This document shows positions 4,388 to 11,550 of a stretch of DNA of 45,657 bases, piece by piece. The DNA is taken from NCBI GenBank assembly GCA_022710385.1, contig JAKLGZ010000005.1:1-45657 (forward strand), written 5' to 3'. Under the pieces are notes generated by a model that did not search any database, was not told where the DNA came from, and saw only the letters and a list, made by a program, of their open reading frames with translations. A program made the position numbers and the translations under genes. How positions within the stretch are numbered: position 1 is the first letter of the stretch; each line of letters starts with the position of its first letter. This DNA is from Methanoregula sp. (GTDB lineage: Archaea; Halobacteriota; Methanomicrobia; Methanomicrobiales; Methanospirillaceae).

Positions 4388-5353
4388 TTATTTTCTTCTT
4401 GATCCAGTGACAATAAGAAGGAACATCAATGCAACTATCCCGGTCACTCCACCGGCAATCCCAGCTCTTGGTGTGGGGGAGAGTTCAGTGCTGGTTACTT
4501 CCGCTGTAAGGGTTGCAGTGTCATTTATCAGGGCAACCGTTGGAAGTTCAGTGGGGACGGGGGTACCTGATTCCATGACGGAAGCTTCGGTCTCCATGGT
4601 CTCTCCGGATTGGTCGCCGGCATATGCCAAAGAGAGCTTTTCGGCGACATCTTCAAGATTCGGATTCATGGCGAGGGCCTTAAGATACTGCTCCACGGCA
4701 TCATCATATGCTCCTGCAGCGAAACGGGCATCACCAAGAAGAGCATAGACGCTGGCATCACCGGGATCGAGTTTTAGCGCCTTACCAAACGCATTTTCTG
4801 CTTCAACGGTCCGGTTCAGGGACAGAAGTGCATTTCCCTTTCCTTTCCATGCCCTGAACGAGAATGGATCAGAGGATAGTGCCTTTTCGTAGGCGGCGAG
4901 TGATTCGTTATACTGGCCTTTCGTGAAGAGGTCATCACCTTTTATCCGCCAGAGGACTCCTTCCTCAGCAGATTCTCCACTTGCTCCGGATGAAGAGCCG
5001 GAATCTGATGAGGAACTGTCTGAACCGGAGCTGCCACTGGTACTTTCCTGCCCATCACTGGGGTCACTGCCACCTGATCCTGACCCACTATCACCAGAAC
5101 TGCTGTCATCCCCGGAACTCCCGGAATCACCAGAACTGCTGCTATCCCCGGAACTCCCGGAATCACCAGAACTGCTGCTATCTCCGGAACTCCCGGAGTC
5201 ATCATCGTCATCGAAGCTTCCCGACCCGCCATCATCCCAATCATCTGATGGAGAATCCCAGGATCCCCCGCAACCACAGTCATCTGCAGCTGCGCTCCCC
5301 ACGATGACCAGAATAATGAGAGCGGCTACAATGAGAGATCGCACTGGCTTCAT
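4388..5353 (-). CDS. Secreted, membrane-anchored TPR protein with Ser/Asp/Gly repeat linker
   Basis: A 321-residue surface protein. Residues 1-23 form a signal peptide (KPVR, hydrophobic core, AAA before DDC). Residues 24-130 are almost entirely Ser, Gly and Asp, including near-identical 12-residue units of the type SSGDSSSSGDSG encoded by a 36-bp DNA repeat. About three tetratricopeptide repeats follow (135-240; GQYNESLAAYEKAL, TVEAENAFGKALKLDP, GAYDDAVEQYLKALAMNP). A Thr/Pro-rich stalk leads to one C-terminal membrane segment (about 296-316) ending in RRK. This suggests a protein tethered outside the cell, presenting TPRs through an acidic linker. Sequons NES and NRT in the TPR part are possible targets of the AglB in this window. 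A TATA-like CTATAATTT lies about 25-30 bp before the ATG, a leaderless arrangement. Confidence 0.85.
   Translation of the reverse strand: MKPVRSLIVAALIILVIVGSAAADDCGCGGSWDSPSDDWDDGGSGSFDDDDDSGSSGDSSSSGDSGSSGDSSSSGDSGSSGDDSSSGDSGSGSGGSDPSDGQESTSGSSGSDSSSSDSGSSSGASGESAEEGVLWRIKGDDLFTKGQYNESLAAYEKALSSDPFSFRAWKGKGNALLSLNRTVEAENAFGKALKLDPGDASVYALLGDARFAAGAYDDAVEQYLKALAMNPNLEDVAEKLSLAYAGDQSGETMETEASVMESGTPVPTELPTVALINDTATLTAEVTSTELSPTPRAGIAGGVTGIVALMFLLIVTGSRRK
5090..5197. repeat. 36-bp tandem repeat, three copies
   Basis: Three head-to-tail 36-bp units (5090-5125, 5126-5161, 5162-5197), each starting ATCACCAGAACTGCTG, differ at only a few bases. They encode the Ser/Gly/Asp 12-residue repeat of the TPR protein on the minus strand. 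Because 36 is a multiple of three, copy-number changes keep the frame, so linker length could vary between strains. Confidence 0.9.
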
Positions 5354-6336: not shown

Positions 6337-6680
6337 AGATTATTCTTCATGACTAGAATAAACATACATTCCCATGATGAAAAGTACGCAAAAAGGTTAA
6401 TATTAATCTGAACGATTAATCAAATTACAGGAAGAGCGCCAGCCCCAGCCTGGGGATACACCAAAGATATTGTGTAATTATCCCTTTTCCGATATGAGAT
6501 ATATATTTTTGCCCGGCAAAGGCTCTTTTTTGGGGAGATTGGGCTCAAATAACTGAAAAAACACAGGGAAACATACATCATACCTCAATTTCAGACCTCG
6601 TGATCGTGAAATGCCACCCGAATGCAACTGATGCAAAATGTTCCCGGGAAAAGATATCCAGGACTAGTATTGAGAAATGA
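6337..6680. other. 344-bp intergenic region before the UbiA-family gene
   Basis: Holds the promoter of the UbiA-family gene (operator at 6402-6420 and a TATA-like TGTTTATT close to the ATG) and AT-rich DNA downstream of the first regulator gene. No convincing coding frame was seen. Confidence 0.6.
6402..6420. promoter_or_regulatory. Palindromic operator ATTAATC-N5-GATTAAT upstream of UbiA-family gene
   Basis: Perfect 7-bp arms with a 5-bp spacer (TGAAC), 66 bp before the start at 6336. The same palindrome with the same spacer length occurs before both neighbouring regulator genes. An extra GTTAAT half-site abuts it at 6396-6401. The geometry fits a dimeric winged-helix repressor or activator. 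Confidence 0.75.
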
Positions 6681-7568
6681 TTATAAGGTAAATTCCACTG
6701 CATTACTTTTATAATACTGATACAGCTTCTGCCCCCATGTAACGGCTGCTGGGTCTGCTGAGAACAAATCGGTGGTGGTGTCATAGGTGACTCCATCACT
6801 CTTGTAAAGACCAAGCGAGATCTGCTTATCGGTGACCGTCAATCCCAGCCTGGGCATTTCATCGAGAATGAAAATCTTGCTCGTGGTATGGCTTGCAAGT
6901 TCGTGAATTTTATCGAAATGGGGAGATTGTAGGATCTGTCCGATAAGGTCTTTTCCTATCAGTGTTTCCACATATACACCTTCCCTGATTCGTTTGAGTA
7001 CAGCATCGGTATGGGCTGGGCTTGAGATAGGGGAGAGGATGTAGATCTCTTTTGAATCCTGTATCATCCTGAGAAAATTGAAGTACACATTGAAGATATC
7101 AACATTCGTATCAAGAATGATATCGGAATTGTACAATTCTCCGAGATTCACGAAAAAATCTTCAGGGATTGCTTCTGAGTAATGCTGATCCCAGAAATTG
7201 TTGTGCTTTTTTGTGACTGATTTGAAAAGGATAATATCCTTGATCTTTTTTGTGAGGATCTTTCCCACGGGAGTCAGGTGGTATTCGTAGTCAGAGATTG
7301 CCATAAAATTACTCGATTCCAGCTTTCGGATCTTTGGAATCAGTGCCTGGGATGAGCTTCCGGTAATATCTCTGAGCTGCGAAAGGGTTTTTGTTCCATC
7401 ACCAAGTGCAAGAAGGATCTGGATCTGGAGTCTCGACCGAAAGAGGGCCTGGATATCCCCCATGATGCGGGAATACTGATCAACTTCTTTTGCTCTCAAA
7501 CCATGATTTGGGGGCAGTCCGGTGAATGCAATGTTCGAACTATACATCGTCCGGCTCTGTTCAAACAT
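6681..7568 (-). CDS. FilR1/DUF1724-type winged-helix transcriptional regulator (copy 1)
   Basis: A 295-residue regulator. Residues 36-100 form an ArsR-like winged helix (IMGDIQALFRSRLQ, GSSSQALIPKIRKLE, wing YEYHLTPVGK). Residues 105-295 match the methanogen-type FilR1 (formerly DUF1724) effector domain, with the ILSPISSPAH and LGLTVTD...SLGLYKSDG patterns. It is a close paralogue of the gene at 7898-8707, being nearly collinear from IMGDIQALF onward. The N-terminal 35 residues are unique to this copy and begin MFEQSRTMYS, resembling the start of the UbiA-family protein. A near-palindrome of the shared operator lies exactly 66 bp upstream, so autoregulation and control of the UbiA-family gene are plausible. 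Translation could instead begin at the internal Met before GDIQALF. Confidence 0.85.
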   Translation of the reverse strand: MFEQSRTMYSSNIAFTGLPPNHGLRAKEVDQYSRIMGDIQALFRSRLQIQILLALGDGTKTLSQLRDITGSSSQALIPKIRKLESSNFMAISDYEYHLTPVGKILTKKIKDIILFKSVTKKHNNFWDQHYSEAIPEDFFVNLGELYNSDIILDTNVDIFNVYFNFLRMIQDSKEIYILSPISSPAHTDAVLKRIREGVYVETLIGKDLIGQILQSPHFDKIHELASHTTSKIFILDEMPRLGLTVTDKQISLGLYKSDGVTYDTTTDLFSADPAAVTWGQKLYQYYKSNAVEFTL

Positions 7569-7897
7569 AACTTGTTCTTCGAGGGTGAAATAAACATAAA
7601 TTCCTATGGCGAAGAATCGCCAAAGAGATGAATGTTAATCGTAGCAGTTAATGTCCCTGCTTAAAAGGGCTATTCCCTTCACAGGGAACAGAGGAGCTGA
7701 AATATCCCTTCCTATACGATATAGCTTTGCATGGCATTGAACAATAAGAGCACTGTCAATCTCACATCCCGCGGGTAGTTTCGCGAAAAGGGATAAGGTG
7801 ATGTACATATCAACTTATGAAAAATGCGCTATCAGGCCACATATTCTTTGCAAGGGATATTCGGACAAATGAAAGATCGGGTTGCCAAGATGAACCA
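7569..7897. other. 329-bp intergenic region between the two regulator genes
   Basis: Contains the promoter of regulator copy 1: the operator at 7634-7652 and a TATA-like TTTATGTTTATT about 21-32 bp before the ATG, implying a leaderless mRNA. The rest is the 3' flank of regulator copy 2. A 72-codon frame here lacks protein-like composition and overlaps copy 2 antisense. Confidence 0.6.
7634..7652. promoter_or_regulatory. Operator GTTAATC-N5-AGTTAAT upstream of regulator copy 1
   Basis: Same 7-5-7 geometry as the operators at 6402 and 8818, with three changes from the perfect palindrome. It lies 66 bp before the start codon at 7568, exactly the distance seen at the UbiA-family gene. Confidence 0.65.
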
Positions 7898-8707
7898 TCA
7901 GTATTTCAATTCGGTTGCCATATTCCGGTAATAGTGATACACCATATGCCCCCAGCTGACAGCTCTTGGATCTGTGGAATACAGGTCGGTTGTGGTATCA
8001 TACGTGATGCCGTCATTCTTGAAAAGGCCGAGTGAGATATGGTTCTCTGTAACCGTAAGACCCAGTTTTGGCATCTCTTCCAAAACGAGTATTTTACTTT
8101 TCGTATGACTGGCTAGTTCATAGATTTTATCGAACAGTGGTGATTGCGAGAGGTGTGCGATAAGGTCTTTTCCCACCAGTGTTTCCACATAGGCACCTTC
8201 ATTAATCCGTTTCAGAACTGCATCGATGTGGGCAGGGCTTGAGATAGGTGAAAGGATATAGATCTCTTCCGATTCCTGTATAATCTTAAGAAAATTGAAA
8301 TAAACATTGAATATTTCGACATTGGTATCGGTGACAATTTCTGAACTGTACAGGTCACCGACAGAAGAGAAATACTCATCTGGTATCGATTGCGTGTAAT
8401 GCTGGTCCCAGAATTTTTTATGTTTCTTGATCACTGATTTGAAAAGGATGATATCCTGGATTTTTTTGGTGAAGATCCTCCCTATGGGGGTTAGGTTGTA
8501 CTGGTAATTGGCTATCGTTATGAAATTGCTTGTCTCAAGTTTTCGTATCTTCGGGATGAGAGCCTGCGAGGAACTTCCTGTTATTTCACGGAGTTGTGCA
8601 AGGGTCTTTGTACCATCCATGAGGGCTATTAAAATCTGGATCTGAAGTCGCGAGCGGAAAAGTGCCTGGATATCTCCCATCATACGAGTGAACTCGTCTA
8701 CTGCCAT
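7898..8707 (-). CDS. FilR1/DUF1724-type winged-helix transcriptional regulator (copy 2)
   Basis: A 269-residue paralogue of the regulator at 6681-7568, without its N-terminal extension; it begins MAVDEFTRMMGDIQALF. A winged helix occupies residues 8-75 (GSSSQALIPKIRKLE recognition region), followed by the FilR1-type effector domain (ILSPISSPAH; KLGLTVTENHISLGLF). The two copies share most residues throughout, so they arose by tandem duplication. A perfect ATTAATC-N5-GATTAAT palindrome lies 111 bp upstream, with another GATTAAC half-site nearer the gene. The effector ligand is unknown. Confidence 0.87.
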   Translation of the reverse strand: MAVDEFTRMMGDIQALFRSRLQIQILIALMDGTKTLAQLREITGSSSQALIPKIRKLETSNFITIANYQYNLTPIGRIFTKKIQDIILFKSVIKKHKKFWDQHYTQSIPDEYFSSVGDLYSSEIVTDTNVEIFNVYFNFLKIIQESEEIYILSPISSPAHIDAVLKRINEGAYVETLVGKDLIAHLSQSPLFDKIYELASHTKSKILVLEEMPKLGLTVTENHISLGLFKNDGITYDTTTDLYSTDPRAVSWGHMVYHYYRNMATELKY

Positions 8708-8817
8708 TCTGTGTCACCCACACTAACCTGCCTGCCGGAAAATGTCATTTCAGGGATGACCTCCGCAATGCGTGTTCCCCCGTTTCTGATGGCGAATGAC
8801 AAATTCTCATCAGTGCC

Positions 8818-8836
8818 ATTAATCAATGAGATTAAT
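8818..8836. promoter_or_regulatory. Palindromic operator ATTAATC-N5-GATTAAT upstream of regulator copy 2
   Basis: Perfect 7-bp arms with 5-bp spacer AATGA, 111 bp before the start at 8707. A further half-site, GATTAAC, lies at 8849-8855, farther from the gene. It is identical in arms and geometry to the site at 6402-6420. Confidence 0.75.
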
Positions 8837-8938
8837 CTTCATCTATACGATTAACCTTCCTTAAGGTACCATGTAATCGTATATAATACCTATCGAATCA
8901 CTTATCCGGCGCTCCCATTCAGGGCTCAAAGATATCTA

Positions 8939-10041: not shown

Positions 10042-11550
10042 CTTCGCCAGAAGAAGGATGAGAAGGTAGTGTTTAGAGAATTTGATGCCAGAAAACACAA
10101 CCTTCTCATTAGGCAATATAGCGTTAATCGATAAAATTGATTTGGAGACTACCTTCTTTGAATCAGTTCTTGGAGGGATTGGCGGTCGGAGCAGATCGTT
10201 CATACCGTCCGTAAAACTTCTCATCAGCAACAAGCTCAATCAATCAGTATCCATCAACAAGATCCTGGATTTTACGCCGGATGAACTCCTTGGGACCTTA
10301 GGATTTACGGATAAAATCTCAGATCGGAGTTTGTATAGGGTTTTGGAACGGCTTGGCGAGAGACAACCGATTGTCCTTGACCAATTTCAGCGATGGATCT
10401 GCCATCAGGATCTCGTTGATCCAACCCAGTTCGTGGACTTCAGTTCGAGTTATTTCGAGGGGAAAAAATGTCCTCTCGGTGAACTTGGATATTCCCGGGA
10501 CAACCAGCCAGGAAAACTCCAGTTCACGTTTGGGATCAGTGTTGGCCTCAACAACATACCGACGATGTTGACCATCCAGAGAGGAAATGTTCAGGATAAG
10601 AAGCACATGCGATCGCTGATTCGGTTATGTTCGCGAGTCCTGCCAGAGGGAAGTCTCCTGGTGTTTGACTGTGGCGGGAATACCCAGGATAACAAACGAA
10701 GGATCCGTGATCTGAACTTCCATTATCTGACCCTGAAGGCAAAGAAGAAAGGACCATACCGGAACGAGATAGCGATTTACCATACCAGGAAAGAAAGCCG
10801 AGTTACCTTTCTTTCCAACAACCGGGTCTATTCATGCGTCAAATCCAGGGATGGCGAAGAGGTGCGGTACATCTTTTTCTCCGAGGATCTCGCAGACGAC
10901 CAGTTAACGAAGAAAGCAAGGAAACTTGAGAAGGAGCTCAAGAAGGGAAAGATCCTTTCGAAGAAAGTTGAACAGGGAAAAGATCTCGGCCAGTATATCG
11001 CTCCTGATGGCTGGATCGTCGCCCGGGGTCATCTCCAGAAGATTCTCGGTGAAATCCCGAATCCCTATGTCACTGGTCTTGAAGGATTCTTTATCCTTGA
11101 ATCAAGTGTCGATGATGACGCCGAGAAGATCCTGACCGCTTACAAGAACCGGGACCGGGCAGAGAAGTTCATCCGGGATCTGAAAGAAGGTGCCGAGATG
11201 CGACCTATCCGGCACTGGTCCAAACATGCGGTGATCGGGTATGTTTTGATTGTATTCCTCACGAAAGTCCTGGTCAGTTTGACACAACTTTTCTGCAATA
11301 ATCCCGTCGTGAAAAATCTGAAGGTCCTCAAAAATTATCTCACGAATTTGACACTTACGATCATATACCCCTCTTTTGGGTATCCTATCAAGATCATTTC
11401 CAACTTCTCCCCAGAATTACGCCCAATTCTTGGAGATTTTATCAAGAGATATGGTAATTTGGAGGCTCCTAATCGTTGGTAATATTGAACTGGCGAATTG
11501 CATTTAGGCGCACTGATTAGTGGTGACTATATGAAAGTGGCGAAGTTAGG
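10037..11550 (+). mobile_element. Complete insertion sequence, IS4-superfamily (IS1634-like), 1,514 bp
   Basis: The element has 13-bp terminal inverted repeats (CCTGACTTCGCCA at 10037-10049; complement of CCTAACTTCGCCA at 11538-11550; one mismatch). It is flanked by identical 6-bp target duplications TAACAA. It carries one intact DDE transposase gene. It interrupts codon 159 of the THEP1 gene. Intact ends, intact transposase and perfect duplications point to a recent insertion. Confidence 0.92.
10085..11482 (+). CDS. DDE transposase of IS4/IS1634 type
   Basis: A 465-residue transposase. The catalytic triad is visible as D118 (FVDFSSSYF), D195 (LVFDCGGNTQD) and E360 in YKNRDRAEKFIRDLK, which fits the Y-(2)-R-(3)-E-(6)-K signature of the IS4 superfamily exactly. 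The region between D195 and E360 is long, as expected for the beta-strand insertion domain of this group. An in-frame TTG precedes the chosen ATG by one codon. The gene starts 48 bp inside the left terminal repeat and ends 68 bp before the right end. There is no frameshift or internal stop, so it is probably functional. Confidence 0.93.
   Translation: MPENTTFSLGNIALIDKIDLETTFFESVLGGIGGRSRSFIPSVKLLISNKLNQSVSINKILDFTPDELLGTLGFTDKISDRSLYRVLERLGERQPIVLDQFQRWICHQDLVDPTQFVDFSSSYFEGKKCPLGELGYSRDNQPGKLQFTFGISVGLNNIPTMLTIQRGNVQDKKHMRSLIRLCSRVLPEGSLLVFDCGGNTQDNKRRIRDLNFHYLTLKAKKKGPYRNEIAIYHTRKESRVTFLSNNRVYSCVKSRDGEEVRYIFFSEDLADDQLTKKARKLEKELKKGKILSKKVEQGKDLGQYIAPDGWIVARGHLQKILGEIPNPYVTGLEGFFILESSVDDDAEKILTAYKNRDRAEKFIRDLKEGAEMRPIRHWSKHAVIGYVLIVFLTKVLVSLTQLFCNNPVVKNLKVLKNYLTNLTLTIIYPSFGYPIKIISNFSPELRPILGDFIKRYGNLEAPNRW

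Follow-up and report, generated by a model that had tools for sequence, protein, structure and literature searches.

A palindromic operator candidate shared by UbiA-family prenyltransferase genes and TrmB-like regulators in Methanomicrobiales

MreA and the Msr proteins are regulators of methanogens. Here we analyse a 45,657 nucleotide stretch of Methanoregula sp. DNA (contig JAKLGZ010000005.1; hereafter the window), in which a gene for a UbiA-family prenyltransferase and two genes for winged-helix regulators are transcribed from the minus strand in the order regulator 2, regulator 1, UbiA, and in which a palindromic site stands upstream of each of the three genes, as a preliminary description of the sequence had stated (Table 1). 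As set out in PMC4158304, TrmBL1 and Tgr of the Thermococcales act on a scattered regulon through TATCAC-N5-GTGATA sites (Thermococcales glycolytic motif, TGM), which repress when they lie downstream of the B recognition element (BRE) and TATA box, mostly overlapping the transcription start, and activate from upstream. The window's regulators resemble these proteins in their predicted TrmB-family fold, a winged helix with a phospholipase-D-like domain that matches the structures of TrmB and TrmBL2, and their putative operator is likewise a palindrome with a 5 bp spacer, with presumed repressor sites downstream of BRE/TATA-like elements and a scattered candidate regulon. Unlike the TGM, it has the arms RTTMATC and GATKAAY and frequently forms abutting 19 bp tandems; the partner gene is UbiA instead of sugar metabolism, and neither regulator matched the TrmB Pfam models at E ≤ 0.001. 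FilR1 of Methanosaeta (Methanothrix) harundinacea shares the FilR1_middle domain (PF08350) and a winged-helix N-terminus (FilR1 domains as given in PMC5847659), but the window's regulators have no detected C-terminal receiver domain; a term search of the FilR1 paper itself (PMC3991700) gave no occurrence of motif, palindrom, inverted repeat or consensus. MreA of Methanosarcina acetivorans is also a methanogen regulator and is called a TrmB family member in PMC4158304; unlike the window's regulators it has 139 residues, with the DNA-binding part in the first 111, and regulates methanogenic pathways.

We consider it likely that the palindrome is a DNA operator bound by the adjacent TrmB-like regulators, and that it controls UbiA together with the regulators' own genes, most likely by repression. 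The computed evidence comprises the conservation and enrichment of the sites, the near-constant pairing of UbiA with a regulator, the match between operator and recognition helix, the predicted fold and a fixed TATA–operator distance at most loci where UbiA precedes the regulator. In its working the module would resemble TrmBL1 with its TGM operator, and an enzyme gene with a dedicated autoregulator and a palindromic operator is an ordinary class of system. What is new, as far as could be checked, is UbiA as the partner, the breadth of the association and the operator itself; searches of open-licence papers, mostly at listing level, gave no account of the operator or of the UbiA–regulator pair, nor of an operator for FilR1_middle regulators. 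If correct, this reading would give a large group of archaeal FilR1_middle regulators both an operator and a partner gene. The UbiA enzyme would stand out as one that matters enough for a dedicated regulator to be retained in several methanogen families. The operator would furthermore give a list of further candidate genes for each genome and a simple binding test, and the predicted fold makes possible a ligand screen on the phospholipase-D-like domain.

Operator sites in the window and in related genomes

Within the window, the strict palindrome ATTAATC-N5-GATTAAT occurs twice without mismatch, at the two places previously described, and not once in 100 dinucleotide-preserving shuffles. A further copy, absent from the preliminary description, directly adjoins the 8818 site at 8837–8855. 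The third site, described earlier as carrying three changes, is present upstream of regulator 1, and its support comes from relatives, not from the window count: five matches were found at three mismatches against 2.78 expected, and 17 of 100 shuffles reach five, so this site is not significant alone. The relatives concerned carry a site before the corresponding regulator gene, with one mismatch (L183) or two (L175) to the family consensus, or with two to the strict motif (G047). The last of these genomes has two regulators in the same order as the window, and tandem operator copies occur there too (L039).

The UbiA upstream regions of relatives gave a more general form, RTTMATC-N5-GATKAAY. 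The strict motif that had been put forward as the operator does behave as one, but is only one form of this consensus, which often occurs as abutting 19 bp tandems. The window's genome (1.74 Mb, 74 % complete) contains the strict motif three times, twice in the window and once on contig C141, and has ten matches at ≤ 2 mismatches versus one for the reversed control; amongst 61 genomes of the family it occurs 11 times, in six genomes, and the reversed control never. Using the degenerate arms, the same 61 genomes gave 86 sites with an N5 spacer, 22 with N6 and 19 with N4. The reversed degenerate pattern matched only once, but is too lenient a control (its reverse holds CTA/TAG), and the N4 and N6 spacers were therefore used instead, according to which roughly 20 of the 86 sites may be chance. 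Genomes with a strong regulator match (29) held 73 N5 sites versus 13 and 10 in the spacer controls, and those without (32) held 13 versus 9 and 9; at least one site was present in 28/29 of the former and 9/32 of the latter (p = 2.7e-8), a comparison that counts the module's own sites too. For the eight genomes of the window's genus in this sample the figures were 35 for N5 and 4 and 0 for the controls, and a genus-wide search found a site in 12/12 genomes. The genome-wide scan proposed in the preliminary description, in which occurrence at chance frequency was to count as refutation, has in this way placed the motif well above controls both in its own genome and in relatives.

A scan of genome contigs with the UbiA query returned 41 loci, with titles naming Methanoregula, Methanolinea, Methanospirillum, Methanoculleus, Methanofollis, Methanogenium, Methanomicrobiales/Euryarchaeota and, once, Methanosarcinaceae (L178); three of the matches are distant (L195–L197). 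A regulator lies ≤ 1 kb from UbiA in 37 of the first 38 loci (the exception being L160) and in L195. The comparison of orthologous upstream regions, also suggested beforehand, showed that 34 of the 39 loci L157–L195 have an operator (≤ 1 mismatch) in the 350 bp preceding UbiA, without mismatch in 26, compared with 2 of 867 control windows taken from the same loci. Two copies (each ≤ 2 mismatches) stand exactly 19 bp apart in 15/38 loci, in 14 of which one copy has ≤ 1 mismatch. Across 199 genomes of the class, UbiA matches occurred in 79 and regulator matches in 99, and a regulator was found ≤ 1.5 kb from 78 of the 87 UbiA matches (some genes being represented by several fragments): it lay upstream on the same strand in 38, downstream on that strand in 26 and in convergent orientation in 14. 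For six of the remaining nine (G054, G162, the second copy in G183, G151, G060 and G177) the contig shows no regulator match, and for the other three (G126, G113 and G121 C3) a match lies further off; among 40 regions compared, no other gene group near UbiA recurs in more than 7. The UbiA–regulator pair is a two-gene module spread over several families of the order. The compact self-regulating circuit envisaged earlier is supported insofar as the operator is tied to the regulators and to UbiA, with autoregulation the natural reading, but it is not a local three-gene oddity. A distant second UbiA subfamily was observed in convergent orientation with a distant FilR1-like regulator in 14 cases (G003, G027, G038, G099, G170 C40 and others). 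As this distant subfamily is also paired with a regulator, the association is probably older than the RTTMATC-N5-GATKAAY operator; the convergent pair in G003 (L034, L236) has no site at ≤ 1 mismatch.

The presence of the operator also follows the recognition helix. In the close regulator group the segment TGS[ST]SQA[LI]IPKIR is nearly invariant, and an operator is present at 31/31 loci with this canonical helix versus 3/7 with an altered one, the canonical class having been defined post hoc, after the sequences had been seen. Amongst the altered loci, L169, L174 and L178 have an operator, and L173, L187, L192 and L195 have none. Regulators 1 and 2 have identical recognition helices and should therefore share or compete for sites.

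UbiA and regulator 1 share a homologous 5′ region that runs from the operator as far as the first codons (local alignment score 64, with a maximum of 28 in 2000 shuffles), and the N-termini are alike (MFEHSH in UbiA, MFEQSR in regulator 1). Judging from this alignment, a duplicated UbiA promoter, together with the initial codons, has come to stand in front of regulator 1, which explains both the resemblance of the N-termini and the identical 66 bp spacing. That spacing, to which attention had been drawn before, is correct for both genes but is inherited through the duplicated region, and we rejected it as two independent occurrences. The upstream region of regulator 2 is not clearly part of the duplication: aligned with that of UbiA it scores 27, versus a maximum of 28 among the 2000 scores of UbiA against shuffled regulator 1 sequence. 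In L175 and L183 a regulator with the same N-terminus as regulator 1 is preceded by a site. Regulator 1 is also closer to the outgroup regulator in L180 (226 identities versus 205 for regulator 2).

Predicted fold of the regulators and assignment of UbiA

The AlphaFold2 model of regulator 2 (predicted local distance difference test 92.5, predicted TM-score 0.85) had TrmBL2 as its first eight Foldseek matches; phospholipase-D-fold proteins came next, and the TrmB sensor domain ranked 17th. By VIA-align it aligned with TrmBL2 at Z 15.2 (root mean square deviation 22 over 208 residues, the relative domain orientation differing) and with the TrmB sensor 2f5t at Z 14.2 (2.5 over 130 residues), and structure alignment with TrmB 3qph gave Z 13.7; families missing from this comparison may resemble the model as well. 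The regulator is accordingly modelled as a winged helix with a phospholipase-D-like domain in a TrmB/TrmBL2-like fold, the architecture of the TrmB family. Pfam matches of the regulators were to PF08350 and PF25213, with HxlR as a further match in regulator 2 alone. Both proteins end with FilR1_middle, and no receiver (REC) domain was matched at E ≤ 0.001 in either, so that by domain content they are not FilR1-type two-component response regulators; of the earlier label FilR1-like, the shared FilR1_middle domain stands, and the predicted fold is TrmB-like. A tblastn search for viral relatives of the regulator found none.

The Asp-rich motifs of UbiA proteins have a role in Mg-prenyl-diphosphate binding. 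Both motifs (NxxxDxxxD and DxxDxxxD) are invariant in 16/16 aligned orthologues and intact in the window gene, which in this and in its family match is like UbiA-family prenyltransferases. Unlike them it falls below the cut-offs of all 14 NCBIfam models listed, the best being PRK13591 (96.6 bits versus a cut-off of 238), and we therefore assign neither substrate nor product. Prenyl-compound synthesis, suggested beforehand as the controlled process, is what the homology to UbiA points to.

Promoter geometry and competing explanations

We infer that dimers of the adjacent regulators would bind the operator and control UbiA and the regulator genes, and that their most likely mode of action is repression, exerted at the transcription start or immediately behind it. 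Binding of a ligand by the phospholipase-D-like domain, perhaps one connected with the UbiA product or the state of the membrane, would lift this repression. The promoter geometry was read at the UbiA-first loci, namely 25 of the 39, in which the regulator lies downstream of UbiA, including L160, where the regulator is absent from the sequence read. A TATA-like element ([AT]T[AT]TATCAC) precedes the anchored operator with a gap of exactly 10 bp in 17/25 and of 29 bp, i.e. one 19 bp unit more, in 2/25; a further 2/25 are cut off by a contig end. The UbiA start codon follows 45–49 bp after the operator in 22/25. Should this element be the TATA box, the transcription start would fall within the operator, and in the window the probable TATA box of regulator 2 would likewise let its tandem operators begin at about the start of transcription. 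The regulators of the module very probably act through the operator on themselves, on UbiA and, in some genera, on further genes.

Several observations weigh against this reading. The conserved BRE/TATA-like block of the window's genus stands 79 bp ahead of the UbiA operator, which means that roadblock repression or a second promoter must be assumed there, and four UbiA-first loci (L159, L172, L177 and L181) have no TATA-like element in the 50 bp read. Five of the 39 UbiA loci lack a site at ≤ 1 mismatch, and 5 of the 29 regulator-bearing family genomes (G010, G022, G030, G032 and G039) lack a UbiA match. The post hoc definition of the canonical-helix class counts here too, as do further FilR1-like paralogues (e.g. 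G000 C162), which could bind the same DNA. Finally, the distant convergent pair in G038 (L035) has a one-mismatch site ~500 bp before a regulator of the other subfamily; the operator may not be strictly confined to this regulator subfamily, or that site may be chance.

It seems unlikely to us that these regulators act mainly as activators of UbiA, with the operator serving as a site upstream of a start-proximal promoter. TrmBL1 and Tgr do activate from sites upstream of BRE/TATA (PMC4158304), and the block immediately preceding the UbiA start (6340–6375) is strongly conserved within the window's genus and readable as TATA-like (TATGTTTATTC). The same block can, however, be read as a short open frame, and both the element 10 bp upstream of the operator in the 17 UbiA-first loci and the position of the regulator 2 TATA box upstream of its operators favour repression. 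Control by another, unlinked regulator, with the FilR1-like genes as mere targets, is quite improbable. It would draw on the nine family genomes that carry sites without a strong regulator match and on the further paralogues, but the 32 genomes concerned hold N5 sites at nearly spacer-control level and include two incomplete assemblies of the window's genus (G053 and G059); moreover, the pair is kept together though its order varies (upstream, downstream or convergent), and loss of the operator accompanies change of the recognition helix.

Highly improbable is an origin of the palindromes as RNA hairpins in leaders. The sites do lie in predicted 5′ leaders, and amongst 102 distinct sites, whose commonest spacers are GCAGC and GCTGC, the inverted repeat runs into the spacer in many relatives and the arms covary at positions 4/16 (p = 2.5e-6). 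Yet complementarity is missing at positions 4/16 in 27 of the 102 and at positions 1/19 in 23, for which reason we disfavoured hairpins; the abutting copies at 19 bp pitch and the dependence of site presence on the regulator's helix argue in the same direction. As for AT-rich coincidence or remnants of duplication, the duplicated promoters of UbiA and regulator 1 and the non-significant three-mismatch count could be cited, but the region upstream of regulator 2 does not clearly share in the duplication and the sites are conserved across genera and families. With no perfect site in the shuffles and the excess upstream of UbiA over control windows, chance was rejected, and we regard this explanation as practically negligible.

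Beyond binding by the adjacent regulators, a wider and doubtful proposal is that of an order-wide switch for prenyl-compound homeostasis, in which the phospholipase-D-like domain would sense the UbiA product, its prenyl-diphosphate substrate or the membrane-lipid state, and the same operator would couple this signal to cell-surface proteins in the window's genus and at least one other. Were it true, the switch would be a lipid-responsive counterpart of the sugar-responsive TrmB and would point to an undescribed prenylated compound in Methanomicrobiales.

Table 1. Genes, operator candidates and probable promoter elements of the UbiA–regulator locus in the window
Feature	Position	Strand	Evidence or remark
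UbiA-family prenyltransferase gene, 306 aa	5416..6336	-	Pfam PF01040, E = 2.5e-23
Operator upstream of UbiA, perfect palindrome ATTAATC-N5-GATTAAT	6402..6420	.	Conserved block in seven-sequence genus alignment
Probable BRE/TATA element of UbiA promoter	6500..6519	-	79 bp upstream of operator; conserved GGCAAA-N2-ATATA block in seven-sequence genus alignment; presumed promoter role
Regulator 1, 295 aa, winged helix and FilR1_middle	6681..7568	-	PF08350, E = 2.5e-24
Diverged operator upstream of regulator 1	7634..7652	.	Three mismatches to strict motif; corresponding sites in G047, L175, L183
Probable BRE/TATA element of regulator 1	7717..7734	-	Corresponds to UbiA element in alignment; presumed role
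Regulator 2, 269 aa, TrmB-like winged helix and phospholipase-D-like domain	7898..8707	-	PF08350, E = 1.2e-23; AlphaFold2 model
Operator upstream of regulator 2, perfect palindrome ATTAATC-N5-GATTAAT	8818..8836	.	Sequence read and shuffle test
Second operator copy abutting the 8818 site, 19 bp pitch	8837..8855	.	Three mismatches to strict motif, one to RTTMATC-N5-GATKAAY
Probable TATA box of regulator 2, TATATAATA	8880..8888	-	24 bp upstream of tandem operators; read from sequence, presumed role

Candidate targets and neighbouring genes

In order to survey other targets we read 40 stretches around sites among the matches listed, three of which (L141, L143 and L153) were regulator/UbiA loci; for the window's genus the list of sites is complete, and for the wider family the targets are those among the matches listed. 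Of the other sites read in G007 and the window's genus, most fall between open frames. The genes behind them specify an S8 peptidase with surface domains, a NosD-type beta-helix protein, a VWA/Big_1 protein and further proteins with hydrophobic N-termini; an ion-channel protein gene lies behind sites 179–453 bp away, and in five genomes a group of apparently intracellular MPES-type proteins has a site 16–19 bp before the start. We treat these further genes, many of which encode secreted or membrane proteins, as candidate targets that the operator may reach in the window's genus and in a second one. Scoring of N-termini covered L117–L152 without the module loci L141 and L143, using open frames called by length with no gene finder. 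Hydrophobic N-termini were found in 15/26 candidate targets versus 58/148 background genes, which is not significant (p = 0.088); with the MPES group of eight collapsed to one target, a step decided after the first result, the proportion was 15/19 (p = 0.0012). Enrichment of secreted or membrane proteins is as such suggestive only. Sites inside open frames (L118, L127, one in L130, L138, L147, one in L150, L151, L155 and L156) may be chance. Outside the family, among the matches listed, several sites stand at UbiA or regulator genes (e.g. in G078, G075, G137, G129 and G121) and others elsewhere.

On contig C141 of the window's genome (10249–10290; L005) two operator copies are spaced at 23 bp instead of 19 bp. 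The two open frames downstream of them, one at 10465 (76 aa) and one at 10692 (running off the contig), both have hydrophobic N-termini. A one-mismatch site at G000 C156:6469 lies near open frames that we take from their sequence to be ferredoxin-like and formyltransferase-like, and may be chance. The same genome encodes a third FilR1-like paralogue (C162:5066–5812; L235), upstream of a same-strand gene with a hydrophobic N-terminus. In Methanoculleus-type genomes a small Cys-rich open frame (..CASCAYYEPERAYCTYIHTP..) follows UbiA or the regulator (L230, 5019–5321; L231; L232, 5160–5423; L186, from Methanoculleus sp. FWC-SCC1; L234), preceded in 4/5 of these loci (not L231) by an operator-like site (≤ 1 mismatch).

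Around UbiA in the window, a short open frame on the minus strand (6340–6375; MGMYVYSSHEE-stop) ends 3 bp before the UbiA start; it coincides with the block strongly conserved in the seven-sequence genus alignment, lacks the first ATG in L188 and encodes a varying peptide in L189. Directly behind UbiA, a frame at 4388–5353 (−) specifies a protein that combines a hydrophobic N-terminus with Ser/Asp-rich and TPR repeats and whose group sits behind UbiA in 6/40 compared regions, the window included. Near the regulator block, a DDE transposase-like open frame (PF01609) occupies 10082–11482 (+).

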